Origin: Planctomycetota bacterium
GTDB taxonomy: Bacteria; Planctomycetota; Planctomycetia; Pirellulales; PLA5
Length of the DNA stretch: 55,867 bases
Assembly: GCA_003576845.1 (NCBI GenBank)
Contig: QEVJ01000026.1
Location: forward strand, 1 to 55,867
Direction: 5' to 3'
Shown: piece after piece, positions 2-20,800 of the stretch
Layout of the letters: each line of letters begins with the position of its first letter
How positions within the stretch are numbered: position 1 is the stretch's first letter
Notes under the pieces: generated by a model
The model's input: only the letters and a program-made list of their open reading frames with translations
Databases searched by the model: none
Told to the model about the DNA's origin: nothing
Made by a program: the position numbers and the translations under genes

Positions 2-1966
2 CTTCGCAGTACGGCGTCACGGCCATGCGACATCGACGTGGCACGCGTGCTGGTCTACAACCGAGAGTTGACCGCCGACGAGCGAGCATTGGTCAGCGAC
101 TACCTGACTGGTCGCTACATTCGCGGCGAGATCGAGTCGCCGGCCGACTTGCCGGGACTGGCCAACTGGTGGGACGCGGCGCAACTGACAGCTACGGCTG
201 GCGCGAAGCACAACACGCTCGCCGACAACATCGGCGGCAAACACTTCGTCTCGCCGTCGGGCGCAGGCGATGGCTTCGACGCCGCATGGCCCACGGTGCG
301 ACTCGATGCGAGCGGCAACCGTTACCTCCAGTTCACCGGCAGCCACGTGATGTTCGCGGGCGCGCCTGCGGACTGGGCCAAGTTGCACAACGCGACTGAC
401 AAGACGATTGCGGTCGTCTACCGAGTTCCGTCGAGCGCCAGCACGTTGACTCCGATCCTTGATTCGGTCGAAGGCGACACGACGGGGAACGTCGGCATCG
501 GGTTCTACCACGATGCCGCCAGCGACGCGCAACGGATTCAGTGGCGCGTCGGCGCGGCGTCTGCCACGCCCGTGCTGAGTCACGACTCGCGGAACTACGG
601 CTCACGACCGGGCTTGTGGCACGTGGCGCTACTCGCCTACGAAAGCACAGTCCCGTCGAGCGAAGAGAACTTCCATCTGTGGCTTGACAACGAGCGTTAC
701 GTCGGCACGGACCAAGGCACGACACCCTCGGCCAGCAATCCGCCCGGCAGCCTTGCTCTCGGCGCACTTGCGGATGCCAGCGCCTACGGCACCGTCGATA
801 TAGGAGAGGTCATCGTCTACGACCGCAAACTGGGCGAGCCGGGCGAAGCCCAAGTCCTGTGCGAGCATCTGGCCGCGAAGTGGAACACGGCGCACGTCGC
901 GCTTGCCGCTGGCAATGGCCTCGCGAACACGCTCAACGACTCGACGCCGCACCGCGGATTTCCCGGCCTGTTGCGAACTCCCGGCGGCGTCTGGCTCTGT
1001 GCCTATCGCCGCGCACCGAACCACGGCAGTTCTGCGGGCGAGTGCGTCATGGTCACCAGCAGCGATGCGATCCGCTGGAGCGCCGAGCGCGTGATCTATA
1101 GCGACACCGCCAACTACGATTGGCGCGGCACGAACTTCCTCGGCCAAATTAGCACGGGCCGCATCTTCATCGGCATGAAGCTGTCGACGACGAGCAGCGG
1201 ACTATTGCCCTACACGGCGAGCGTGCTCTACAGCGACGACAACGGCGGCACGTGGCAGGGGCCGGTGTTCGTCTCGAAAGTCACCGACCCTTGGCATCAA
1301 GGCATTTTCGCGGGCGGCCTGCAATATGACGAAGGGGTCAACTCGATCGTCGAGCTTAGCGACGGCACGCTGCTGTTGCACTTCATGGCGCTGGTCAACT
1401 CGGCCGTGTTTCCGCACATCGTCCAATGCAAGTCGTTCGACGGCGGCGACACCTGGACCGAGCCGGTGCCCATCTACTACGGCCGCCAGCCGGGCTTGGG
1501 CGACTTTCCGGTGGACGAACGGATTCAGGAACCTGTGGTCGTCCGCTTCGCGGACGGCGAACTGCTGATGGCGATTCGCGCCGACACGGCCAACGAGCGG
1601 ATTTACTTCGTCCGCGACGTGACCGGCACCGGCGACAACTGGTCGCCGTCGCAGCCGACCGTGAACGACCGCATCGACGGCTGGGGCAACCCGCGAATGA
1701 TCGTCGACGAAAACGAGCGATTGTGGCTGTTCTACCGCTCGACGAGCGAACTGCCGGTCTACAGCTATAGCGATGATCGAGGCGACACGTGGAGCGCGGC
1801 GCAACCGCTCACGAATCTCTCGACGGGCGGCACGACGACAATCGCGGCCTACGGCAGCATGAGCTACGCCTTCCCGGCCCGCGACGAGAACGGCGACATA
1901 TTCGTGGCGTTCGGCCTGGAAGCCGGTTCGGACAGCGACATCTTCGTGCGGCGCTGGGGGCGATGA
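2..1966 (+). CDS. LamG/sialidase-type (BNR) protein, 5' truncated by window edge
   Basis: The frame is open from base 2, so the N-terminus lies outside the window. The visible ~654 residues begin with the end of one concanavalin/LamG-like domain (ending around VARVLVYNRELTADERA). A second complete LamG-like domain follows, closing with the same kind of signature (GEVIVYDRKLGEPGEA). The second half is a sialidase-like beta-propeller with three Asp-box motifs (YSDDNGGTW, SFDGGDTW, YSDDRGDTW). Repeated lectin domains plus a sialidase propeller suit a glycan-binding or glycan-cleaving tail-fibre or surface protein. The next gene starts within its stop codon (ATGA), and mini-kinase genes and an integrase module lie further on, which favours a prophage-like setting. 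A secreted planctomycete glycan enzyme is the alternative. No catalytic sialidase residue set was verified. Confidence 0.75.
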   Translation, partial: LRSTASRPCDIDVARVLVYNRELTADERALVSDYLTGRYIRGEIESPADLPGLANWWDAAQLTATAGAKHNTLADNIGGKHFVSPSGAGDGFDAAWPTVRLDASGNRYLQFTGSHVMFAGAPADWAKLHNATDKTIAVVYRVPSSASTLTPILDSVEGDTTGNVGIGFYHDAASDAQRIQWRVGAASATPVLSHDSRNYGSRPGLWHVALLAYESTVPSSEENFHLWLDNERYVGTDQGTTPSASNPPGSLALGALADASAYGTVDIGEVIVYDRKLGEPGEAQVLCEHLAAKWNTAHVALAAGNGLANTLNDSTPHRGFPGLLRTPGGVWLCAYRRAPNHGSSAGECVMVTSSDAIRWSAERVIYSDTANYDWRGTNFLGQISTGRIFIGMKLSTTSSGLLPYTASVLYSDDNGGTWQGPVFVSKVTDPWHQGIFAGGLQYDEGVNSIVELSDGTLLLHFMALVNSAVFPHIVQCKSFDGGDTWTEPVPIYYGRQPGLGDFPVDERIQEPVVVRFADGELLMAIRADTANERIYFVRDVTGTGDNWSPSQPTVNDRIDGWGNPRMIVDENERLWLFYRSTSELPVYSYSDDRGDTWSAAQPLTNLSTGGTTTIAAYGSMSYAFPARDENGDIFVAFGLEAGSDSDIFVRRWGR

Positions 1967-3003
1967 TGGCCGACGCTTACGTTCTCTCTAATGCCGACGT
2001 TCGCACGCTCCAGCGGATCGCCCAGCGCGATCGGGGCGATCCGGTGAATCATCGCCCTCCCGTGCAAGGGCTATCACATTCCGGCCGATTGCCCGGCGTC
2101 CGCATCGGCGTGGCTTATGGCACAATTCCCGCGGCGGTCTACAACAGCAGCGGCACGCTCATTAAGCCGGGCAAAGGCGAATGCAAGCTGCGGCAGGTCA
2201 AGGCGGACGGGACTTCGATCCTCAACCTCGGCGACGACCTTCCAATCGTCTGCTACAACCTTGTGCCGCACCAGATCGCAAACGGCGCGAGCATCCTCAT
2301 GCTCCGCGACCAAACCATCGAGGGCGACGTCAAGAACAAGTCCGAGCCGGGCTATCTCGTCTTCGACTTCCAAGAAAACCAAACCCGCCGAGGCTACGGA
2401 ATCTTTCGGGCTTCGGGCCAAACCTCCGGAACGCAAACAGGACTCATCAACCTCACGACAACGGTTACCGACTCGTTCAATTCCAATGACCTTCAGCCGG
2501 TGATCGGATTTCAGGTCTCCGCAGGAGCGCCAACGAGCTTTGATCGGATCGTCGTCAATGACCCCGGCATTTACCGGTTCACGTTCGACTGCCGGATTCG
2601 GTTCGTGTCACCTGCCGAGCCGGCTCCGCCCTATAGCTATCAGAACAAAGTTGCAATCGTATCCGGCACCAACAATCCCTTCACGAACGTAGTGAGCGGG
2701 ACGACGAACGACCTGTGCGCGCATCGGCTGCACCGCCGCGAGCGGTTCTGGCTGGTCAAGAATCAGAACTTCGGCACGCCCGCAACGACGGACGCTATCG
2801 CGGAAGGCGAGCCGTGGGCCGTCTACGAATGCAGCGAACTGACGTGGGGCGATCGCCACTACTCGCTTCCGTGCCTGCTCGATGCCGGCGACACTCTGAG
2901 CATGTGGCTGGATGTCGGCGGCCGCAAAGGATCGTATCCGGTCGATTGGAACGCCGAGTTCTCCGTGCACTTCCAAAGCTTCGAGGATGATCTGTCGCCA
3001 TGA
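1963..3003 (+). CDS. Beta-rich hypothetical protein with C1q/TNF-like C-terminus (putative tail fibre)
   Basis: 346 residues. I chose the ATG at 1963, which overlaps the upstream TGA as ATGA; the next codon is also ATG. The frame is open upstream to 1789, but that part lies inside the sialidase gene. The N-terminus (MADAYVLSNADVRTLQRI) is helical and charged, and the middle is Thr/Asn-rich and beta-prone. The last ~150 residues alternate short hydrophobic strands such as DPGIYRFTFDCRIRF, NKVAIVSG and AGDTLSMWLDVGG, a pattern seen in C1q/TNF-like jelly-rolls at the tips of phage fibres. The tight overlap on both sides (ATGA at each junction) makes this an operon with the sialidase protein and the first kinase-like gene. 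Function is inferred from fold pattern and context only. Confidence 0.6.
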   Translation: MMADAYVLSNADVRTLQRIAQRDRGDPVNHRPPVQGLSHSGRLPGVRIGVAYGTIPAAVYNSSGTLIKPGKGECKLRQVKADGTSILNLGDDLPIVCYNLVPHQIANGASILMLRDQTIEGDVKNKSEPGYLVFDFQENQTRRGYGIFRASGQTSGTQTGLINLTTTVTDSFNSNDLQPVIGFQVSAGAPTSFDRIVVNDPGIYRFTFDCRIRFVSPAEPAPPYSYQNKVAIVSGTNNPFTNVVSGTTNDLCAHRLHRRERFWLVKNQNFGTPATTDAIAEGEPWAVYECSELTWGDRHYSLPCLLDAGDTLSMWLDVGGRKGSYPVDWNAEFSVHFQSFEDDLSP

Positions 3004-3500
3004 GTTGCAACTGCCTCAAGATTCCCGAGGGCGCGGAAGTTCTCGCTCGTGCGACGGGCAAGTGTCGCGTCGTTTATCGGCTCGGCGACCGGGTCGTCAA
3101 AGTGCTTAAGGAGCGCGTCACGCCAGACTACGTTCGCTCGCACCAAGCGTTTGCCGCCGAGCAGTCCGACATTTGCGAGCCGTTTGAGTACGACCTCGGT
3201 GCCCATGAACTGCACCAGAGGTTCATGGGCTACGATCCGCCGTCAGCGCAGGAACTGCTCGCGATCAAACAGACGATTCTGCATCGCGGCTTGTCGGTCG
3301 ACGACGTGATGCCGGCCAACGTCCGTGGCGGCAAGCTGATCGACTTCGACCTGATGTTCTTCGCCGCCGTGCCGGTCACACCGCGCGGCGTCCATCGTCG
3401 TGGACGAGTCGTGACAACCAACTCGGCAACCGTGGAAGAACTTCGAGCGCTGGGGCCGTTGATTAAGTGGCCCACCAGCGAGCCGCTTGCACCGTCCTAA
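3000..3500 (+). CDS. Miniature protein-kinase-fold protein 1
   Basis: 166 residues, starting at an ATGA overlap with the upstream gene. It reads as a stripped-down protein-kinase fold. There is a short N-lobe with K34 in the VVKVLKE strand (the ATP-binding Lys position). The catalytic loop has D102 five residues before N107 (DDVMPAN), and the metal-binding DFG equivalent is D115-F-D (KLIDFDLMF). What follows (~50 residues) is too short for a normal activation segment and C-lobe. Key catalytic positions are thus kept while the overall length is roughly half that of a normal kinase domain. Substrate is unknown; neighbouring fibre-like genes suggest phage cargo. It could be a small phosphotransferase of the aminoglycoside/lipopolysaccharide kinase type. 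The motif match is direct; the activity is inference. Confidence 0.6.
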   Translation: MSCNCLKIPEGAEVLARATGKCRVVYRLGDRVVKVLKERVTPDYVRSHQAFAAEQSDICEPFEYDLGAHELHQRFMGYDPPSAQELLAIKQTILHRGLSVDDVMPANVRGGKLIDFDLMFFAAVPVTPRGVHRRGRVVTTNSATVEELRALGPLIKWPTSEPLAPS

Positions 3501-3520
3501 TCCAATTGGGAAACTGTGTA

Positions 3521-3904
3521 ATGGCCTTTTGTCGCAGTTGTGAATGGGTCCATCGCGTTTGGGATTATGTTCGCATTGCTCGCCTAGCTGGCGGCGGCGA
3601 AAGTCGCGAAATCTGGAAACTCGGCCCAATCTGCATCAAACGCTGGTCCCGGCGCATCGCGTCTGCGGATATCCGCGAGCGCTGTCGCACCAGCCGCAAA
3701 GTGCTGGCCTGCAATTCGATGTGGTACTTCTCGCCCCTGCATTTGACGGTGGCGTACTGGGTATTCGGAACCCCCGCAACGCACGAGGTCTGCAACAATC
3801 TCCTCATTGAGCATCGATCGATCGGCGATCTTCATCCTGGAAACGTGTACGTCGAGTTTGGCCGCACCAGGATTCTTGACTTCGCTATCCGCTCTCCGGA
3901 ATAG
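3521..3904 (+). CDS. Miniature kinase-fold protein 2
   Basis: 127 residues from ATG 3521. A GTG at 3467 is in frame but overlaps the previous gene. It follows kinase-like protein 1 by 20 bases in another frame and has the same layout. K40 sits in the strand GPICIKRW, a loop GDLHPGN carries D103 and N108, and D120-F-A replaces DFG (TRILDFAIRS). The GDLHPGN form resembles the small-molecule/ABC1/RIO-type kinases more than eukaryote-like Ser/Thr kinases. There is essentially no C-lobe after DFA (five residues). Sequence identity to its neighbour is low apart from these motifs, so they are either ancient tandem duplicates or two halves of a functional partnership. No function can be assigned. Confidence 0.55.
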   Translation: MAFCRSCEWVHRVWDYVRIARLAGGGESREIWKLGPICIKRWSRRIASADIRERCRTSRKVLACNSMWYFSPLHLTVAYWVFGTPATHEVCNNLLIEHRSIGDLHPGNVYVEFGRTRILDFAIRSPE

Positions 3905-4135
3905 CCGCGGCATCGCGCCAAACGCTTCATCTGGGGCATTCAGGGTCGCATGCCATAGGCCATCTTGTTCTGGCATGTCCGCGGGGTGGGGGTTAGAATC
4001 AATTCCCGCCGATACTCCGGTCGTGCGACGACAGGCCGGCCGGCTGCTTCCCGTCCCGTTCACCAGTGGCTGATTCACCCTGTCCAGAAGTTTTGGAACG
4101 GGGATATCTCGCAATATGGCTTGAGGAAACCCGAC

Positions 4136-7100
4136 GTGCCCCGACGTACCAGTCAAACCGGAAGCGAACTCTTCATCGTCGACAATAGCGACGAGGACTG
4201 GAAGGTTCTCCGCTATCTCCACGACTGGTGCCCGCTGTCCAAGGCTATCGACATCGCAACGGGTTACTTCGAGATCGGCTCACTACTTGCTCTCCGCGAC
4301 GAGTGGCAGAAGGTTGATGCGTTCCGCATTCTGATGGGGGACGAAGTATCGAAGCGAACAAAGGCTGCATTTGTCGCTGGCCTAGGCGAGATTCAAGCTC
4401 GACTCGACGCCAGCCTGGAATCCGAAAAGGAGAAGAACGACTTTCTGACCGGGGTGCCGGCAATCGCGGAGGCGCTCCGAAGCGGCAAAATCTGCTGCCG
4501 TGTGTATCGCAAGGACAAGTTCCACGCCAAGTGCTACCTGACACATGCTCGCCAAGAGGTCGTAGGCTCGTTCGGTCTCGTCGGTTCGTCGAACTTCACT
4601 TATCCCGGCATCACCGAGAATATCGAACTGAACGTGCAGATCAGTGGTACGCCCGTCGCGGTGCTTCAGGAATGGTACGAGCAGCACTGGAATGATGCAG
4701 AAGACGTCACGCCGGATATTCTTCGGACTCTCGAACGACATGTCCACGAGTATTCGCCTTTCGAGGTTTACGCGAAGTCGATTCAAGAATACTGCCGCGG
4801 TCACGAATTGACGGCCAGCGAATGGGAACTTGCAGGACCGCAGCGCGGGTCGCGCATCTACGGCATCCTCGACCAGTATCAAAAGGAAGGCTATCAAGCC
4901 GCGATGCAGATCGCTCGCCGGCACGGCGGCGCGTTCGTTTGCGATGGCGTCGGTCTTGGAAAGACCTTCATCGGCTTAATGCTGATCGAGCGGCTCATCA
5001 TGCACGAAGGCAAGCGTGTCGCCCTTTTCGTGCCGCGCACGGGTCGTGTCGACGTTTGGGAGCGTTGGATAAAACGCTACTTGCCGCACATCGGCGGCGT
5101 GCGGGGCGGCGATTTCAGTAGCCTCGTCATCTTCAATCACACGGACCTCGGTCGCGGCGGCGACTTCCCGTACCGATTCGAGCGCATCAAGGAGATGGCC
5201 GACGCCATCGTGATCGACGAAGCCCACCACTTCCGCAACCTCGGACGCAGCGGCAAAGAGTCGGGCGGTAAGCCGTCGCGTTATTACCAACTCGATGATC
5301 TGATCGAAGGGCCACGCGGGACGAAGGAAGTCTTTCTCCTGACGGCCACGCCAATCAATAACAGTCTTCACGACTTTCGCCACATGGCCGAGTTGTTCAC
5401 GCGGCGGCGGGAAGACTTTCTCGCTCAATGTGGTATTCACTCGTTTCGCGGCCACTTCGTCAGTCTCGAAAAAACGCTGCTCAAGAAGTCGAGCGACTAC
5501 CCGTTGTTTACGGACACCAATTTAGCCGAAGTCGACAAGCTGTTCGCGCACGACAAAGTTTTTAAGGAACTTGTCGTTCAGCGAAGCCGAGCATACGTTC
5601 GGCGCAGCCAGATGCAACAAGGTGGTGACGTGGCGACATTCCCTGAGCGCCAGCCGCCCCAAGTCGCGGACTATTCCGTCAAAAAGACGTATGGGCGCTT
5701 GCTGGATACAGTCGACACGGCGTTCGCCAAAGAAGAGCCGCTATTCGTCCTGGGCATCTACTATCCGTTGCATTACTACAATGGACCGAAAACCGACATC
5801 GACCCATTGGCGAACAACCGACAGATTCAGGTGTGCGGGCTGATTCGCACGCAGTTTCTCAAACGATTTGAAAGTTCGGCGCACGCTTTTGAGCAATCCT
5901 GCGACCGATTGCTCATTAAGCTGCTGGCTTGGTCCGAACGCCACAGTCAAACCGATCACGAAAAGCAGCATTTGACTCGCTGGAAACTCAAACATGCCGA
6001 TCTGATCGGTTATGTTCACCAGCGTCAGCGCGAGCTGTTCCCGGACGAGGACGAGGCAGAAGCGGACGAAGACCTTATCACCCCTGAGATGCTCGAAGAT
6101 ATCGACGAGCTTGACCGGGACGAATACGACGTCCATCGAATCCTCGAGGACACGCGCGAAGATCTGAACCAAGTCGCGGAGTTTCTCGAAGAGCTTCGCA
6201 AGTTCAAACCGCAGCACGACGACAAGCTAAAGGCGCTCATCAAGCTGCTAAAGAACGACCCGGTGATGAAGAAGCACAAGGTGCTGATCTTCACTGAGTT
6301 TGCCGAAACCGCTCGGTACTTGCATCGCGAGTTGGCCGAGGCCGGTATCAAGGGCGTCGAGCAGATCGACAGCGGCAAGAAGGACCGTGGCGACTTTATC
6401 CACCGCTTCTCACCCTACTACAACGGAACGACGAGTGCGAAGCTCGCAGAGGAAGGTCGCGATGAGATTCGCATCCTGATCTCCACGGATGTTTTGTCCG
6501 AAGGCTTGAACCTTCAAGATTGCACGCGCCTGATCAACTACGATCTGCACTGGAACCCGGTGCGGCTGATGCAGCGCATCGGTCGCGTTGACCGTCGCCT
6601 TAATCCAGAGGTCGAGAAGCAACTCGTCGCCGACCATCCCGACCAGAAGCCACTCCGCGGTCAGATTGCGTATCACAATTTCCTGCCGCCCGACGAGCTT
6701 GAAACGCTACTAAGCCTGTACGGCCGCGTTTCTCACAAGACGTTGCAAATCTCCAAGACCCTTGGCATCGAAGGTCGTAAGCTGTTGCGGCCCGAGGATG
6801 ATTACGAGGCGCTGAAGGATTTCAACGAAACATACGAGGGCACGACGACCACCGACGAGGAGATTCGCCTCGAACTCCAAGCCATGCTGGGCAGCGACGG
6901 CGGGTTGGCCGCGCGGCTTGACGCCCTGCCGGGCCGAGTGTTTAGCGGCAAGCGGCATCCGCAGCCGGGAACGCAGTCCGTATTCTTCTGCTATCGGCTG
7001 CCGCGTCCTGATCATGCCGCGGGCGGCGCGAAGGGCGAATTGCCCTGGACCGAAGAGGCGGGTGAAACGCGGTGGTACTTGCACCGTCTTTCCGACGGCC

Positions 7101-7300
7101 AGCTTCTCGAAGAGGCATCCGCCATAATTGACGCAATCCGCAGCAGTCCCGATACGCCGCGCCATTGCGCAATTCCGCAGACGACGCTTGCCGAGATTCG
7201 CGGCAAGGTCGAAAAGCACATCAAGAACTCCTGGCTGAAGCGCATGCAAGCGCCCATCGGTGTGAAGCCGATTCTCAAGGCCTGGATGGAACTGAACTAA
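4136..7300 (+). CDS. PLD-nuclease/SNF2 (RapA-like) helicase, restriction-type subunit
   Basis: 1054 residues from GTG 4136, preceded by GAGGA at 8 nt. The frame is open to 3965, but that extension looks non-coding. Residues ~10-190 form a phospholipase-D-type nuclease domain with one HxK motif (H130, K132 in FHAKCYL) and the paired GSSN at ~150. A superfamily 2 helicase follows: Walker A DGVGLGKT (~269), DEAH box IDEAHHF (~358), motif III TATP (~402), motif V STDVLSEGLNLQD and motif VI QRIGRVDRR (~785-815). An acidic insert separates the lobes. In restriction systems such a protein would translocate DNA and cut it. The next gene, 29 bases downstream, is a type ISP-like adenine methyltransferase, so the pair resembles a split single-chain enzyme in which PLD replaces the usual Mrr nuclease. 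Helicase and PLD calls are secure; the defence role is inferred from family and context. Confidence 0.85.
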   Translation: MPRRTSQTGSELFIVDNSDEDWKVLRYLHDWCPLSKAIDIATGYFEIGSLLALRDEWQKVDAFRILMGDEVSKRTKAAFVAGLGEIQARLDASLESEKEKNDFLTGVPAIAEALRSGKICCRVYRKDKFHAKCYLTHARQEVVGSFGLVGSSNFTYPGITENIELNVQISGTPVAVLQEWYEQHWNDAEDVTPDILRTLERHVHEYSPFEVYAKSIQEYCRGHELTASEWELAGPQRGSRIYGILDQYQKEGYQAAMQIARRHGGAFVCDGVGLGKTFIGLMLIERLIMHEGKRVALFVPRTGRVDVWERWIKRYLPHIGGVRGGDFSSLVIFNHTDLGRGGDFPYRFERIKEMADAIVIDEAHHFRNLGRSGKESGGKPSRYYQLDDLIEGPRGTKEVFLLTATPINNSLHDFRHMAELFTRRREDFLAQCGIHSFRGHFVSLEKTLLKKSSDYPLFTDTNLAEVDKLFAHDKVFKELVVQRSRAYVRRSQMQQGGDVATFPERQPPQVADYSVKKTYGRLLDTVDTAFAKEEPLFVLGIYYPLHYYNGPKTDIDPLANNRQIQVCGLIRTQFLKRFESSAHAFEQSCDRLLIKLLAWSERHSQTDHEKQHLTRWKLKHADLIGYVHQRQRELFPDEDEAEADEDLITPEMLEDIDELDRDEYDVHRILEDTREDLNQVAEFLEELRKFKPQHDDKLKALIKLLKNDPVMKKHKVLIFTEFAETARYLHRELAEAGIKGVEQIDSGKKDRGDFIHRFSPYYNGTTSAKLAEEGRDEIRILISTDVLSEGLNLQDCTRLINYDLHWNPVRLMQRIGRVDRRLNPEVEKQLVADHPDQKPLRGQIAYHNFLPPDELETLLSLYGRVSHKTLQISKTLGIEGRKLLRPEDDYEALKDFNETYEGTTTTDEEIRLELQAMLGSDGGLAARLDALPGRVFSGKRHPQPGTQSVFFCYRLPRPDHAAGGAKGELPWTEEAGETRWYLHRLSDGQLLEEASAIIDAIRSSPDTPRHCAIPQTTLAEIRGKVEKHIKNSWLKRMQAPIGVKPILKAWMELN

Positions 7301-7329
7301 TCTGGCGTTCTGTCTAATGCGAGGTACGC

Positions 7330-10300
7330 ATGTCCGGTCGTCACCCTTTGCAAGAGATCAAGTCGTTCCCGTCGCTGGTGAAATACCTGCGCGACGAGCT
7401 TGATTGGCCCATCGAAACTGACAGCTTTGACGAACTGACGTTCGACTTCGTGCCCGAGGAACTAGGACTGAAGCCGCACGAGGCGGCCAAAGTCCGTGAC
7501 ATCAAGCAGCTCCGCCCGCTGACGACCAACCAACCCTGGGGTATTTACTTCGTCGCGTTCGAGCCGAAGCGGCTGCCCGTTGTGGCGCTGCGCAAGATTC
7601 TGGGCAACCTCGTCATCAGAAAGCGCGCGTCAGCCAATAGAGCCGAGCGAGCTTCGTGGAATCTAAACGATCTGCTGTTTATTTCGTCGTTTGGCGAGGA
7701 AAGCGACCGACAAATCACGCTGGCGCACTTTTCGGAAGGCGCAGGCGGCCACGACATTCCAACACTAAAAGTCTTGGATTGGGACGAACTCGATACGCAC
7801 CGAAAACTTCAGCATGTCGATCGTGAACTGCACGAGCGGCTCCGTTGGCCTGAAAAGCCTGGCGACCTGGATGCGTGGCGCGACCAATGGTCGGCCGCAT
7901 TTGTACTTCGCCACCGGCATGTGATCGCGACAGCGCAGGAGCTTGCCGAGCGTTTGGCAGTACTCGCCCAGTTGATCCGTAAGGAGGTAAACAAGGTAAT
8001 CGACATTGAGACGGATGCTGGCCAGCTCCGCAAGCTCTATTCCGCGTTCCGCGAATCGCTCATTCACGATCTTACTGAAGACGACTTCGCCGACATGTAT
8101 GCGCAGACGATCACCTATGGACTGTTCTCCGCGGCCGTATCGCGCACCACCCCGGACGCAGGCACCGTTGTTGTGGCGGACAACCTCGCCGACATGGTGC
8201 CGGTTACTAATCCATTCCTTCGCGAGATGCTGTCCACGTTTCTCACCGTTGGTGGCCGCAAAGGAAAGCTCGACTTCGATGAGCTCGGCATCCAGGAAGT
8301 CGTGGAGGTGCTCAACAGCCCGGACACGAATCTCAACGCCGTCATCCAGAATTTCGGCGACCGACGGCAGGGGGAAGACCCGGTCATCCACTTTTACGAG
8401 GATTTTCTTAAGCAGTATGACCGACAGCGGAAGGTCGAACGAGGTGTCTTCTATACGCCCCAGCCGGTTGTTTCATACATCGTCCGAGGCGTGCATGAAT
8501 TGCTGCGAACTGAGTTCGGCTTGGAAGATGGCCTCGCATCAACCATTACGTGGGGAGAGATGGTCAAACGGCGCGAAGGATTAGCAATCCCCAAGGGGGC
8601 CCGACCAGAAGATCCGTTTGTCGTGATCCTCGATCCTGCAACCGGCACAGCAACATTTTTGGTCGAGGTTATCGACATTATTCATCGGACAATGAGCGAC
8701 AAATGGAAAGGGGAGCGACTTACGGCTTCGCAACAGCGCGACGCATGGAACAAATACGTCCCGGCGCATTTGCTGCCGCGTCTCTATGGCTACGAACTGA
8801 TGATGGCACCCTACGCCATCGCGCACATGAAGATCGGCCTTAAACTGGGAGAGACAGGCTACCGGTTTCAGAGTGAAGAACGTGCTCGCGTCTATCTAAC
8901 AAATGCGCTGGAACCGCCCTCTGACCTCGCTGCGACTGCGGCGGCAAATCTCTTTGACGCGCTTGGCCACGAGGCACAAGCCGTGAATCGGGTGAAGCGA
9001 GATCAACGCTTCACTGTAGTCATCGGCAATCCGCCGTATTCGGGTATCTCGTCTAACATGTCCGAATTTGCGCAGCACTTGGTGGACGCTTACAAGTTTG
9101 TGGATGGTGCTCCATTGAACGAGCGGAAGCTCTGGCTTCAAGACGACTATGTGAAGTTCATCCGCAACGCCCAAACAACCATCGCGTCCACGAACGTCGG
9201 TGTCTTTGGTTACATCACGAATCATAGCTATTTCGATAACCCAACGTTTCGCGGTATGCGGCAAAGTCTCATGGGCACCTTCAATATGTTTCGGGCACTC
9301 GACCTGCACGGCAATACGACCAGGGCCGAGCATCCGCCCGACGGTGTTGCCGACAAGAACGTCTTCGACATTCAACAGGGCGTTGCGGTTTGTCTCGCTA
9401 CGCGAGGTGGATTGCTTGAAGGAGTCCAACACGCCGATCTGTGGGGCACGCGTGAGGCAAAATACTCGTGGCTTGCGAAAAGTTCGGTCGCCACCAGCGG
9501 CTTCGCTGCGCTTTCGCCTGACTCACCTTACTACTTCTTTGAGCCGCAGAAAACCGACTGGCGGGATGAATATGAAAGCGGCTGGAAGATCAACGAAGTG
9601 ATGCCGGTGAACTGTGCGGGCTTTATTACGGCGCGAGACCATTTCGTTGTAGACCTCGACGAGAAGGCGTTACTGGAACGCATCGGCGACTTCGCGGATC
9701 TCAAGAAGTCCGACACTGTGATTCGTGAGACTTACTTTACTGGGTGCGGATCAAGTAAGTATCCCGATGGAGACAGTCGCGGCTGGAAAGTGCCAGAGGC
9801 TCGCCGACGAGTAGCAGGCGATAGGAAGTGGAAGGACCGTGTTCGGATTTGTAGCTATCGTCCGTTTGATAAACGCCCCGTTTATTGGGCGGACTGGATG
9901 GTAGATTGGCCGCGGCCAGAGGTTTCAGGACACATGCTCGCTGGAAGCAATGTTGCTTTACATGTCTGCCGTCAAAGTGTGAGCGAGGCTTGGGCGCACG
10001 TCCTCGTTGCTCGCGGCCTTATTGATGATTGCTACGTCTCGAACAAGTCACGCGAGCGCGGCTACGCACATCCACTTTATCTCTACGAGAGAGATGAGGG
10101 GTTGGCTTTCGGTGGTCACCCCGCACCGAACTTTGCGCCTGCATTTCTCCGGAAGTTGGCAATCGCATTAGACCTGCCACTAGGGAAACCGCAAGAATTA
10201 CCCCGTGACCTGACGCCCGAAGACATCTTTCATTATGTCTACGCGGTGTTTCACAGTCCGGGCTACCGGAGCCGCTACGCGGAGTTTCTGAAGATTGATT

Positions 10301-10770
10301 TCCCGCGCCTGCCATTGACTCGGAGCCTGAAGCTGTTTCGCGCGCTGGCCCGGCTCGGCGGCGAACTCACCGAGCTGCATCTGCTCGAATCACCGCGACT
10401 TGATCAGCCGATAACGGAGTTCACCGGCGACCGCAATGTCGAGGTCGAAAAAGTTTCTTGGTCGCCGGACACCGTATGGTTGAACAAAGCGCAGACCACC
10501 GGCTTCCGCGGCGTGCGCGAGGATGTGTGGAATTTCCAGATTGGCGGATACCAGGTGTGTGAGAAGTGGCTAAAGGACCGCAAAGGCCGAACGCTTTCCA
10601 AGGAAGACATTGCGCACTATCGAAAGATCATCGTCGCCCTGAGCGACACGATTCGCATAATGAGTGAAATCGACAACGTAATCGACCAGCATGGCGGTTG
10701 GCCAGGCGCGTTTATCACAGACGTCACCACGACCGCCGAAACTTCGTCGGCCGAATCGTCTTTTCAGTAG
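7330..10770 (+). CDS. Type ISP-like N6-adenine DNA methyltransferase with target recognition domain
   Basis: 1146 residues from ATG 7330, with GAGG about 8 nt upstream. The first ~330 residues are a helical and beta region of no recognised family. A class gamma adenine methyltransferase follows, with the SAM-binding motif LDPATGTATFL (~434) and catalytic NPPY (~566, VVIGNPPYSG). The last ~450 residues resemble the target recognition and specificity part of type ISP (LlaGI-like) enzymes. It would methylate adenine in an asymmetric target and protect host DNA, with the upstream PLD-helicase as motor and nuclease. Classical ISP enzymes are one polypeptide (Mrr nuclease, helicase, methyltransferase, TRD); here the methyltransferase is separate. 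The 29-base spacing to the helicase gene indicates one transcript. Confidence 0.85.
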   Translation: MSGRHPLQEIKSFPSLVKYLRDELDWPIETDSFDELTFDFVPEELGLKPHEAAKVRDIKQLRPLTTNQPWGIYFVAFEPKRLPVVALRKILGNLVIRKRASANRAERASWNLNDLLFISSFGEESDRQITLAHFSEGAGGHDIPTLKVLDWDELDTHRKLQHVDRELHERLRWPEKPGDLDAWRDQWSAAFVLRHRHVIATAQELAERLAVLAQLIRKEVNKVIDIETDAGQLRKLYSAFRESLIHDLTEDDFADMYAQTITYGLFSAAVSRTTPDAGTVVVADNLADMVPVTNPFLREMLSTFLTVGGRKGKLDFDELGIQEVVEVLNSPDTNLNAVIQNFGDRRQGEDPVIHFYEDFLKQYDRQRKVERGVFYTPQPVVSYIVRGVHELLRTEFGLEDGLASTITWGEMVKRREGLAIPKGARPEDPFVVILDPATGTATFLVEVIDIIHRTMSDKWKGERLTASQQRDAWNKYVPAHLLPRLYGYELMMAPYAIAHMKIGLKLGETGYRFQSEERARVYLTNALEPPSDLAATAAANLFDALGHEAQAVNRVKRDQRFTVVIGNPPYSGISSNMSEFAQHLVDAYKFVDGAPLNERKLWLQDDYVKFIRNAQTTIASTNVGVFGYITNHSYFDNPTFRGMRQSLMGTFNMFRALDLHGNTTRAEHPPDGVADKNVFDIQQGVAVCLATRGGLLEGVQHADLWGTREAKYSWLAKSSVATSGFAALSPDSPYYFFEPQKTDWRDEYESGWKINEVMPVNCAGFITARDHFVVDLDEKALLERIGDFADLKKSDTVIRETYFTGCGSSKYPDGDSRGWKVPEARRRVAGDRKWKDRVRICSYRPFDKRPVYWADWMVDWPRPEVSGHMLAGSNVALHVCRQSVSEAWAHVLVARGLIDDCYVSNKSRERGYAHPLYLYERDEGLAFGGHPAPNFAPAFLRKLAIALDLPLGKPQELPRDLTPEDIFHYVYAVFHSPGYRSRYAEFLKIDFPRLPLTRSLKLFRALARLGGELTELHLLESPRLDQPITEFTGDRNVEVEKVSWSPDTVWLNKAQTTGFRGVREDVWNFQIGGYQVCEKWLKDRKGRTLSKEDIAHYRKIIVALSDTIRIMSEIDNVIDQHGGWPGAFITDVTTTAETSSAESSFQ

Positions 10771-10820
10771 AGGTTTCCGCCAAGGCCAAGCGCGAAACCG
10801 AAGATGAATTGGGCCGAAGT

Positions 10821-11336
10821 GTGGATAAGGGCGTTGCACGCGCCGTAGGCACTTCTGCTGCCGCGAATGCGGACAAACGCGCGTTGCCGATCGATCAGAT
10901 TGATCGCAACGAAGTCCTCGCAAAGATCCGCGACATCTTCGGCGCTGGCGAACCACGCGACCGTGATCAGGCAATCCGCGATCTCGCGGCAGCGTTAGGG
11001 TACGATCGGATTGGACCACGCATCCGTGAAATCTTGGGGAACGACCTGCAAACCGCCGTCCGCCGCGGCATCCTCGAAAATGAACGCGGTCAATATTCGC
11101 TGCTTTGCCGGACAATTGACGAGTACACCCTGGACCACCTCGTCGCCATGCTCGTTGCCGCGATGGGGCCGAGTTGGCAAACTCGCGATGACGCCATCGT
11201 CGTTGCGGCGCGGTACATGGGCTACCGCCGGACTGGCGTCCGGATTCAAAACGCATTCAAATCGGCCATTAACGCCGCCATACGTCGGGGGATTATCGAG
11301 CGCGACGGTGCGGCCAAGATTCGGCGAATTCGTTAA
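10821..11336 (+). CDS. Small double winged-helix-like protein
   Basis: About 171 residues if GTG 10821 is the start. The frame is open from 10698, but that part overlaps the methyltransferase by 73 bases and looks like shadow; TTG 10809 is an alternative. Two internal repeats are visible: ALGYDRIGPRIREIL..AVRRGIL and YMGYRRTGVRIQNAF..AIRRGII. Each has the look of the helical/winged 'GyxRlGxRI..al..A.rrGil' module found at the C-termini of large DUF3320-type ATPases in defence loci. It may bind DNA or act as an assembly adaptor for the enzymes encoded just upstream. The 50-base gap to the methyltransferase and 51-base gap to the 1070-residue gene support one operon. No exact family name is claimed. 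Confidence 0.6.
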   Translation: MDKGVARAVGTSAAANADKRALPIDQIDRNEVLAKIRDIFGAGEPRDRDQAIRDLAAALGYDRIGPRIREILGNDLQTAVRRGILENERGQYSLLCRTIDEYTLDHLVAMLVAAMGPSWQTRDDAIVVAARYMGYRRTGVRIQNAFKSAINAAIRRGIIERDGAAKIRRIR

Positions 11337-11387
11337 GACAGGTACACTTGGGGACGTTTCGCACTTGCATCAACCGACGCGCTGAAA

Positions 11388-14300
11388 ATGTCAACGATCC
11401 CGCAACGCACATGTTTCATCGTCGCTGCCAATCCCGAATACCGTTTCGGTGACACGGCGACCATCCGGCCAGACCTCGGGGCATTTGTTTACGAACTCAG
11501 TGACGTCGCGATTGCCGACGATTTGCTCGAACTCTACCGGCGCGACGTAGGTGAGCCGGCTTTCGCGTTGACGGCCGTCGAAGCCTCCGAAGTGTCCGCG
11601 CCGGAACTGGTGCTGGCGCGGCGCGAGATCAGACGCGCGATATCGATCGGTCAGAATCTAAGTTCAGACGACTATCGAAGTAGCGATGCAACGTTTCGCG
11701 CCATCGGGGCCTGTGCGGTGAAGCTGGAGGAACTTGAGTCAGAATTGCGCCATGAACTCTCGGCGGCGGAATCAGAGACCGACCGACCGACGCCAAATCC
11801 ATTTTCGACGCGAGTAGGGACACTGCCTGAGGTGCCGGCTCCGAGATCTCGCAAAGAGGCAATTGAGCGGCTCCTTCACATCGTAGAACGGCACCGGCTC
11901 TTGTTTCTGTTCTTTGCCGGCGCTATTCGGATCAATCCGGGACAGTTGGGAGGTCGAACAGGAATTCGGGAACGCGTGCTTCACGAGGATGTGCGAGGGT
12001 ACGACGCCTTCATGAAGTCGGTCGACCCGGACGGAAACTTTCTGTTTCAACATCGCGATTTCTTGGATAGATATGCCGACGAAGCGGTTACCCAATTTGG
12101 CCCCGGCGAGGGTTGGAAGCCGAAGGGAGATGGCGCAACCCATCCCTATTGGTCGATCGACGACGTCGGTGCGAGCTACATCGAGGAATCTGCAGACTCG
12201 ATATTCGAGGCGGTCGCTCGACTTCAGGAATTCGATTCATCAGAAGAGATGCAACAGCTGGCAGATCAATGCCTGGGTATCGCGCGCGATCGGAACAATC
12301 CGCGCTGGTACTCGTGCGTCATCGTTCGTTGGATTTACCTCTATGAGTTAGACCAGACGATCGCTGAGATAAAGCGCAAGTTGGTTCGCTGTTCAGTGGG
12401 GTCTGTTTCGAGTCCTACCAAACCAACGGCTGAGCAAAGCGAGGCAGTTGACAATACTCTGTTCTATCTCAGCGTTTTTGTCGAAGAAGGTGTCTACAAC
12501 CACGATCCGATTTTGAACGGGGAGTGCCCGGAGGATCCTACTTTTTTGCCCATAAGCAGTAATCGAGACTACTTTTTCGCGGCCGAGGGAAATGAGCTTG
12601 CCGATCGGCTCATCGCGTTATTCAACCATGATGTTAAGCCCAAGGTGGAAACCGGCGGCGAGTCCATCACTCGCGTGACGTTCGCAGCGACGCCAGCACA
12701 TGAGAGAAACGACCATGAGCGATTTCTGATCGACGAGGATATCGAGGAGGCGCAGGAGGTTGTTGCGAGGCAGCACCATTCGTGGCGTGTCAAACAAGGC
12801 CTCCGGATCGTCGATGGCAAGATCGTGGCGGGACACGAGTGGGCTAGTAAGCGTCCGCCGCTAGCAAGCAATTTGATTCTGGTGAGCACGTTACACGATC
12901 AGGCACAACGGTGGGTTGAACGGTTGGAAGCCGTTCGTCGCCGCCGGGGCGCTGACAACGCAGAATCGACCACCGGCGGCGCGAATGCGGACGGTGAAGA
13001 AGAGAAGACATCTCCAGAGATGCTGCGGGTGCTGCTTCCGACCGCAATCACGGCGACAATTGCGATTCGCGATTTGCAGCGAATCCGCCGTTCCTACCCG
13101 GACGTGATTCCGGTCGAGGAAGCGGAGGCAATGCAAGAAAGTCTGTTCGCCGATCTCACTGCGGCGCTTGAGAACTCGCATTTGCGCCCACTTCTCTCGG
13201 AGCCACACTTTCCGGCGTCGGACGATCCAGAAGCGGACATGAAGCTCAGTGGGGTCATGGCCGTATTGGCGCTGAACCACCCTAACTTTACGGCCGATCC
13301 GTCATCCGAAGCGGAGATGGCGGCGGCGTTGGAAGCCACGTGCAGTGAGGCGCAAAGGAAGGCTGTCGGTTCAGTTGGAACGATCACGACTCGCCTCATC
13401 CATGCCATGCTCTATGACTGCCGAACTCCTAATCCGGCCGCTGACGGCCGATTCAAAGAGCCAGGACGTTTCCTGCAAATGTTCGGCAAATACTGGGGGT
13501 TCCTGCGGTCCATTGTTATGGATGCGACAAACTCAATGCTCAGCATGCGGCCGCATCCGCTAACACCAATGATCATGAATTTCCACGAACGGATTAAGAC
13601 CTGCTTGAACGAGATGAGCGAGCGATGCGACACGAAGGAGGTGCAGGAGACCATTGCCACGCTTGTTGATATCGTTCTGAGCAGCGAACCGGATGAACTG
13701 CAGATGGCAGAGGAGTGGACTCTCGGACGTGTCGGTCTCGTCGATCAGTTCATCGAAAAGACGCGGCTGAACTGGGGCGCGAAGACGTATCCACTGACGT
13801 ACCCCGAGGAACTGTCGTTAAGCCAGGCCAATCGAGCGCTCGCCGAACACCGCGGGAGGATCAAGAAGGTGACGGCACGCTGGCTATCCCAACCCCAGTT
13901 GCCGTCTGCCTCGAACGAGGACAAAACCCAATCGCCTGTTGTAGCAAGCGCCGAAAAGACCACGAAGGACGAAGCGGCGACGACTGTTTTTACGTTTCGT
14001 GAGCATCCCGAAGAACCGGTCGCGCACACGGTCGCACGATTGACGCCTGCAGAAGTCCTTCGTATATGCGAACAATGGCAGGACGAAGCGATTCAGAGAG
14101 TGGCCGGAAACAAAGTCCTGGGCGATTCGACCTGGGGCGAATACTGCGAGATCCTTGCGGTGTTGGCTGAACAGAGGGGATATCCTTCCGGACCGATTGT
14201 TGGGTTCCAAAGCGCCTGCGGTTCTCACGGCATCCCGGCTACGGACGATCTGGCCGCTCACTCGCGACCTGCGGTCGACCTCGTTACGGCTGTCGAACAC

Positions 14301-14600
14301 TGGGCTAACTCTCGACTAAATGCCGGCGCTGGCGATGACGATCTGGACCTTTCGGTGACCCAGCTGGTTATCTTGAAGGCAGTATTCGATTTGGGAGCAA
14401 CCTGCCGGTCAAAGAAAGTAACTTGCCCTAGAATCGCTAAGAAGACCGGGATGAGCGACGATTCCCGGCTGCGGACCGAGCTCTCGCACTTGCGGCAGTT
14501 GAAATTGCTCGGCGGTCCGAAACGCACGTCGGGCTATTGGCTCACGGAAGAGGGAATTGCAGTCGTTGACGGGCGAGCGTCTGAAGTTGTCCGGTCATGA
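11388..14600 (+). CDS. 1070-residue protein of unknown family with C-terminal winged helix
   Basis: ATG 11388 has only a weak upstream ribosome-binding sequence. No Walker, nuclease, methyltransferase, protease or membrane signature is visible. The protein is largely helical, with acidic and glutamate-rich linkers around residues 130-160 and 520-550. The final ~85 residues (SVTQLVILKAVFD to the end) contain a winged-helix pattern, CPRIAKKTGMSD.LRTELSHLRQLKLL, ending in a beta-wing with GYWLTEEG. Size, position directly behind a restriction-like module and the DNA-binding-type tail suggest a specificity, sensor or effector component of that module. It could also be independent cargo of the element. 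Its stop codon lies inside a perfect UUCG-capped hairpin. Confidence 0.65.
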   Translation: MSTIPQRTCFIVAANPEYRFGDTATIRPDLGAFVYELSDVAIADDLLELYRRDVGEPAFALTAVEASEVSAPELVLARREIRRAISIGQNLSSDDYRSSDATFRAIGACAVKLEELESELRHELSAAESETDRPTPNPFSTRVGTLPEVPAPRSRKEAIERLLHIVERHRLLFLFFAGAIRINPGQLGGRTGIRERVLHEDVRGYDAFMKSVDPDGNFLFQHRDFLDRYADEAVTQFGPGEGWKPKGDGATHPYWSIDDVGASYIEESADSIFEAVARLQEFDSSEEMQQLADQCLGIARDRNNPRWYSCVIVRWIYLYELDQTIAEIKRKLVRCSVGSVSSPTKPTAEQSEAVDNTLFYLSVFVEEGVYNHDPILNGECPEDPTFLPISSNRDYFFAAEGNELADRLIALFNHDVKPKVETGGESITRVTFAATPAHERNDHERFLIDEDIEEAQEVVARQHHSWRVKQGLRIVDGKIVAGHEWASKRPPLASNLILVSTLHDQAQRWVERLEAVRRRRGADNAESTTGGANADGEEEKTSPEMLRVLLPTAITATIAIRDLQRIRRSYPDVIPVEEAEAMQESLFADLTAALENSHLRPLLSEPHFPASDDPEADMKLSGVMAVLALNHPNFTADPSSEAEMAAALEATCSEAQRKAVGSVGTITTRLIHAMLYDCRTPNPAADGRFKEPGRFLQMFGKYWGFLRSIVMDATNSMLSMRPHPLTPMIMNFHERIKTCLNEMSERCDTKEVQETIATLVDIVLSSEPDELQMAEEWTLGRVGLVDQFIEKTRLNWGAKTYPLTYPEELSLSQANRALAEHRGRIKKVTARWLSQPQLPSASNEDKTQSPVVASAEKTTKDEAATTVFTFREHPEEPVAHTVARLTPAEVLRICEQWQDEAIQRVAGNKVLGDSTWGEYCEILAVLAEQRGYPSGPIVGFQSACGSHGIPATDDLAAHSRPAVDLVTAVEHWANSRLNAGAGDDDLDLSVTQLVILKAVFDLGATCRSKKVTCPRIAKKTGMSDDSRLRTELSHLRQLKLLGGPKRTSGYWLTEEGIAVVDGRASEVVRS

Positions 14601-18318: not shown

Positions 18319-18417
18319 ATAGGTGATCCAGTCGCTTGAGATTCAGCGGTGGGTGAGGTAACTCAGTGTCCTGGCGTGCCCGCGATTGGGCACGGGAGAT
18401 TTTCGGAGAACGATACG

Positions 18418-20070
<1,653 letters not shown>

Positions 20071-20800
20071 AAGTGACTCTCCGTCTGGGGTAATTGGGGT
20101 GATCGGCCAATTCATTCGGAGTTTTGCTGGCCCGGCTGACTCGCTAACCGTTCCGACAAACGGACACTGCTGCGAAGTTCGCGCGAAGCGACGAGACGCG
20201 GAGAATTGTCGCGAATGCCTTGCTTAATCGCCGCCAAGCTTTGAGTCTACCAAGCGAGACGGGCCGCAGAAGCCCCCGACAGACTTTCCGCGAGTGCCTG
20301 TGCGAATCGAGCGGAGTCCCGGGCACGAACGGCTTTACTTGCGTCGGGCAGGTTGCCGCCTGCGAACGTGCCGATAGCGAGCGTGCGGAGAACGCACGCG
20401 TCTCGGGGTTCCGCCGGTGTATGCCGGACCACGAACATTCTTTCAAAGCCTGTGCCGGAACCCACGGCGCCGCTGGGAGAAGCCGCGGGAGAGAGGCACA
20501 CCCACCGGGACTTGCGGTCGACGCTCCGTTCGTCCGAACCGGGTGGGCGCCGGGCGAATCGGAGTGATTCGGATCGAGTGCCGACGGCGAATTTTCCGTT
20601 TTCGCCGGATGAATTGGCGAGGGCCTGTGGTTCCGGCGATTCTGCTATGCGGGGGAGTTGCACCGGCGCGAAATGCTGCTAAACTCGTTCACGTTCGTGG
20701 GTTTTTTGCCCAATCCTGCGCAAAAACTCAGAAATCAGCGGGATTTAAACCCATACCGTCTTGGAAACAGAGTTCTGCGGAATACAGCCACCGTTTTGCA
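20071..20800 (+). other. 730-bp gene-poor stretch between tRNAs and mraZ
   Basis: Several short frames are open on both strands, but none shows a ribosome-binding site, family signature or convincing composition. It contains the start of the tRNA transcription unit at its left edge and a plausible promoter for mraZ near 20658-20685. I checked for RNase P RNA, tmRNA and 6S RNA landmarks and saw none convincing. An unrecognised RNA or decayed sequence remains possible. Confidence 0.5.
20658..20685 (+). promoter_or_regulatory. Candidate sigma-70-type promoter upstream of mraZ
   Basis: TTGCAC, a 16-base spacer, then TAAACT, ending 115 bases before the mraZ start. Fit is moderate and not tested against background. 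Confidence 0.35.

Follow-up and report, generated by a model that had tools for sequence, protein, structure and literature searches.

Very small kinase-like proteins encoded behind a fibre-like gene at the end of a planctomycete prophage tail module

The gene order, family alignments and structure predictions described here point to a compact kinase-fold family whose genes close the tail operon of temperate tailed planctomycete phages, and we tentatively read its two members in the window (the whole stretch of 55,867 nucleotides that was analysed, which is the entire contig C208 of a 7.05-Mb genome) as ATP-using accessory or modifying proteins cognate to the fibre that is encoded just before them. 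These proteins are P1 (166 aa, positions 3000..3500, + strand), which carries K34, D102-x4-N107 and D115-F-D, and P2 (127 aa, 3521..3904, + strand), which carries K40, D103-x4-N108 and D120-F-A. An earlier note, made from the letters alone, had described both reading frames with an ATP Lys, a D-x4-N loop and a DF(D/A) motif, and their coordinates and motifs were verified. Judged from dN/dS against their homologues on contig C177 of the same genome (0.16 for P1 and 0.30 for P2) and among paralogues (0.11-0.37), P1 and P2 are real genes under purifying selection.

The prophage and its tail module

The leftmost 20 kb of the window is a prophage truncated by the contig start. Its genes encode first a LamG/BNR tail protein and a fibre-like protein of 345 aa, then P1 and P2; these are followed by cargo genes and by those for a primase-like protein and an integrase. 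The tail protein (38..1966, + strand) has LamG/BNR, sialidase-like repeats (Pfam BNR_2 9.6e-17) and has lost its 5' side at the contig start, and it is 93% identical to a 939-aa protein encoded after the capsid and tape-measure genes of a related prophage on C177. In all intact tail loci the kinase-like gene is directly preceded by a homologue of the fibre-like, putatively receptor-binding protein (1966..3003, + strand). On C177 the full order is preserved, running from a capsid/protease fusion (3.2e-72) and a tape measure (9.9e-40) through the BNR protein and the fibre to P1 and P2, and a tape measure is also found on the free viral contig L016 (1.5e-29). By this gene content the tail module carrying the kinase-like genes is genuine, P1 and P2 are its last cistrons, and the phage origin that had been proposed for them is supported. 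Close homologues occur in Planctomycetota assemblies, including a genome of the same genus (G001); our literature search found nothing on planctomycete prophages.

The right end of the prophage is marked by a tyrosine integrase (18349..20052, + strand; Pfam Phage_integrase 1.2e-12, PHROG integrase 5.5e-35), whose 3' end (19896-20071) is antisense to a tRNA-Leu and reaches into a tRNA-Met, so that its C-terminal frame consists of tRNA sequence; this stretch is probably the attachment site. Between the tail module and the replication and integration genes lies cargo (3965-14600) that looks like a prophage-borne defence island, with a PLD-domain SNF2 helicase (PADLOC HKD+Snf2 9.4e-52), a type ISP/IIG restriction-methyltransferase (1.6e-207) and a 1070-aa protein for which the libraries searched gave no convincing match. 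Elsewhere a contig with one tail module carries a second, truncated one about 7 kb away (L012:7249-12348), made up of a tape-measure end, a fibre and a tandem kinase-like ORF, with host-like genes in between.

Family membership and predicted fold

Single-sequence searches with P1 and P2 in Pfam, PHROGs, the PDB, the INPHARED phages and IMG/VR returned nothing usable, and profiles were therefore required. About two dozen P2-like units came out of the profile and protein searches, spread over three planctomycete genomes and viral contig L016, and P1-only and C192-type profiles run against 298 genomes of the class found none beyond these; the family alignments used below are shallow and drawn mostly from one genus. 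P1 is a distant member of this family on several lines of sequence comparison. It matches P2 in pairwise BLASTP (E 0.003) and the P2 family in a profile-profile alignment (hhalign E 4.5e-4) that pairs K34 and D102-x4-N107 with K40 and D103-x4-N108 and IDF with LDF, and it matches the C192 type in profile comparison (E 2.8e-4). Moreover, against a profile built without it P1 scores 10.1 bits, above all of its own shuffles (best 7.5; 3,000 made, of which 2,079 scored), and it ranks third of 644 mechanical ORFs, with only P2 and the viral homologue above it. Positional equivalence gives additional support. In the tandem loci (the second module of C177, C35, G001 C71 and G142 C360) a single ORF holds two units, B and then A, and in the window and the first module of C177 P1 occupies the B place and P2 is the A unit. 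The single-unit loci C71a and C620 have a B-like start followed by A, as if a tandem had collapsed.

When 13 sequences comprising P1, P2, the viral homologue and remote paralogues were aligned, the only invariant columns were K34, R46, D102 and N107 in P1 numbering, while P105 and D115 reached at least 90%; kinase catalytic residues thus account for three of the four invariant positions, and D115 joins them. In fact the nucleotide- and metal-binding Lys, Asp, Asn and Asp are kept down to about 20% identity. The suggestion that P1 and P2 are pseudokinase halves acting together was dropped, since every unit has the full set of four and several loci contain one unit only.

The AlphaFold2 model of P2 (13 rows; pLDDT 83.1, pTM 0.73) follows the order b2-b3-aC-b4-b5-aE-catalytic loop-b7-b8, with N-lobe elements at E28-34, E37-42 (holding K40), H48-60, E67-70 and E75-79, and strongly supports a predicted kinase N-lobe joined to a short helix E, the catalytic loop and a DFx strand pair. 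Nearly all of the 50 PDB matches listed by Foldseek for this model were protein or small-molecule kinases, at a best E of about 4e-3, the query being short, and probabilities of about 0.95-1.0, mostly 0.95 or above. The model of P1 is of low confidence (pLDDT 49, pTM 0.31, from 10 remote rows) and was left out of the fold search, so its kinase fold rests on homology; the N-lobe with b3 Lys, helix C and hinge is present in the P2 model and, by alignment, in P1. With the predicted fold kinase-like and the motif residues conserved among homologues, the kinase-fold assignment made in the earlier note stands. Its statement that neither protein has room for a C-lobe holds for P2, whose predicted fold stops right after the DFx strand pair; P1 has about 50 further residues.

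The family also departs from standard kinases. No Glu is conserved in helix C as a partner for the b3 Lys, an invariant Arg standing there instead (R46 in P1, R52 in P2), and the DFG motif is kept only at its Asp, with DFA, DFD, DYE and DWE as variants. P2 has no activation segment, substrate lobe or C-lobe helices F to I, and its sequence ends 5 residues after DFA. The absent helix C Glu, the unconserved DFG Gly and the lack of an activation segment may mean that catalysis has been lost.

Two remote paralogues in the same genome, P0003 (152 aa, C192, L071:3978-4433) and P0004 (154 aa, C135, L072:4160-4621), score 28.8 and 26.9 bits against the P2 profile, and no fibre homologue was found upstream of either. 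The C192 paralogue lies just ahead of a protein of 592 aa that looks like a tail fibre and gave no PHROG or Pfam match. In G001 (L055-L068) there are about ten fibre-less A-unit copies among surface-protein, regulatory and other host genes (for example L061:4975-5292, L064:2322-2612 and L067:1929-2171). Some of these are truncated or frameshifted, many fibre-less copies are degenerate, and several start sharply at (P)GGGES codons with unrelated DNA upstream. We also considered a dispersed non-coding repeat, which for the tail-linked copies is ruled out by purifying selection on the reading frame.

Coupling to the fibre-like gene

Among the units examined, a fibre gene or its 3' remnant lies immediately upstream in 12 loci, and wherever that gene is intact (9/9 loci, including the free virus L016) the kinase-like start overlaps its stop. 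The overlap takes the form ATGA, GTGA or, in L016, 8 bp, and the L016 fibre is only about 25-30% identical. In the window the ATG of P1 (3000-3002) and the TGA of the fibre-like gene (3001-3003) overlap as ATGA, in agreement with the earlier note, which had tied the first protein to the fibre-like genes by overlapping starts. Translational coupling of the first unit to the fibre-like gene is thereby strongly supported. A scan of viral sequences with the window fibre found nothing.

The fibre-like protein itself has a conserved N-terminal part of about 140 residues and an exchangeable C-terminal part. Within the tandem type all four segments (the N- and C-termini of the fibre and both units) are 64-89% identical. 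When different locus types are compared, identity is 55-63% for the N-terminus of the fibre, about 19-25% for the first unit and 50-76% for the second, and the C-termini of the fibres are unrelated. The exchangeable cassette therefore comprises the C-terminal part of the fibre together with the first unit. This co-exchange is supportive rather than decisive, since linkage of adjacent genes could cause it by itself, and phage operons commonly show translational overlap. P2 is bound less closely to the fibre type and evolves faster, and may therefore play a more general or partly redundant role. Its 3' half (3715-3904) shares 43% identity with the C177 homologue and its first half 58%; neither that first half nor P1 nor the fibre has diverged nearly as far from its C177 counterpart. 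Although strongly diverged, the 3' half retains DLHPGN and DF, and it looks as if it had been replaced or were fast-evolving.

Candidate roles and known relatives

Considering the conserved position together with the retained catalytic residues, we infer that P1 and P2 would bind ATP and Mg and would act on, or together with, the co-translated fibre. The kinase-like protein might phosphorylate the fibre or a tail partner, or it might serve as an ATP-dependent assembly factor, and in either case the fibre partner could stand in for the missing C-lobe, which normally provides the substrate surface. The lack of a substrate lobe plausibly demands such a partner surface, and as the co-translated protein the fibre is the obvious candidate; the conserved coupling and the cassette exchange likewise put it first as a target. 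A bolder version, which we consider rather unlikely as it stands, is that a minimal phage kinase, co-translated and cassette-exchanged with the receptor-binding protein, phosphorylates the fibre or matures it in an ATP-dependent manner with the fibre as its missing substrate lobe, that is, acts as a 'kinase-fold fibre maturase'. The genes of the tail-fibre assembly chaperones Tfa, T4 gp38 and Mu gpU directly follow the fibre gene and are exchanged with its variable end. The arrangement of P1 and P2 resembles theirs in both respects; however, these chaperones are not kinase folds, and no sequence relation between them and P1 or P2 was found. In the literature searched we found no kinase-fold protein that assembles or modifies fibres.

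The main rival, possible although somewhat doubtful, is that P1 and P2 are moron or lysogenic-conversion kinases, carried at the prophage's tail end, which phosphorylate a host protein, an RNA or a surface molecule, in host take-over or superinfection exclusion, and play no part in fibre function. A position behind the tail genes is a classic one for morons, and a role away from the fibre would suit the many fibre-less copies dispersed in G001, the remote paralogues P0003 and P0004, and the unrelated 142-aa mini-kinase that other phages carry far from their tail genes. Against this, many of the fibre-less copies are broken or truncated, morons normally carry their own promoter, and a start/stop overlap with the fibre gene in all nine intact loci combined with co-exchange with the fibre C-terminus is unusual for them.

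It is unlikely that the proteins are catalytically dead, nucleotide-binding pseudokinases that serve the tail tip as structural components or scaffolds. The missing helix C Glu, the degraded DFG and the absence of an activation segment and substrate lobe are what such a role would predict, and the operon position and the coupling to the fibre gene would fit it also. However, Lys, Asp, Asn and the Asp of DFx are kept together, as catalysis requires, and the compact effector kinases HopBF1 and OspG are active, OspG needing a protein partner for its activity (PMC9950578).

That P1 and P2 are small-molecule phosphotransferases of the antibiotic- or sugar-directed APH/choline-kinase kind seems very improbable. 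APH is the best Pfam family for the homologues, one tandem homologue exceeding its cut-off (4.8e-6, 26.9 vs 23.2 bits), and the family (PF01636) shares the style of the catalytic loop and DFx motif. Yet the match covers only about 20-26 residues of that same stretch, APH domains have about 240 residues and bind their substrate in a C-lobe that is absent here, and a tail operon offers no reason for such an enzyme. Chance motif matches in a non-kinase fold are the least credible reading: P1 has a weak score of its own, and neither P1 nor P2 has a match at family cut-offs in Pfam (APH included) or the other libraries searched, but against chance stand the P2 model with its Foldseek matches, the APH match above cut-off and the restriction of invariant columns to catalytic residues and one Arg.

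Having favoured, tentatively, a role cognate to the fibre, we note that the small size by itself is not new, as predicted structures of kinase-fold phage proteins with 117-175 aa already exist and compact effector kinases are known as well. The earlier note had called kinases this small unusual, which needs qualifying: searching BFVD with the P2 fold recovered those phage proteins, and an unrelated family of about 142 aa is present in 98 phage records, one of them annotated as a serine-threonine kinase. Its members in tailed phages (e.g. PaMx11_73) share by Foldseek the same minimal architecture at a similar length, but sequence comparison gives nothing usable (0.9 bits against the P2-family profile). 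The PaMx11 gene lies in the replication/early half, whereas P1 and P2 lie behind a fibre gene, and a tail context for this Pseudomonas mini-kinase was sought in PaMx11 and not found. For the conserved coupling to a fibre gene, the tandem arrangement and the 127-aa size we found no description in the literature searched. The finding gives very small kinase-fold phage proteins, a widespread class that has lacked an explanation, a specific and testable place in virion assembly, and P2, with four catalytic residues in 127 and no substrate lobe, would help to define the smallest working kinase or ATP-dependent partner.

Among the cellular and effector folds, NleH1/2, OspG and HopBF1 likewise have a kinase core with a reduced C-lobe, and NleH1/2 are among the closest PDB folds listed (TMq about 0.56). 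They differ from P1 and P2 in being longer (159-163 residues modelled for the NleH kinase domains) and in being secreted effectors with no relation to phage tails. The highest query TM-score among the PDB matches listed (0.59) belongs to the archaeal RNA kinase Ark1, which is also small (171-172 residues) but is only about 14% identical and is a cellular RNA-modifying enzyme.
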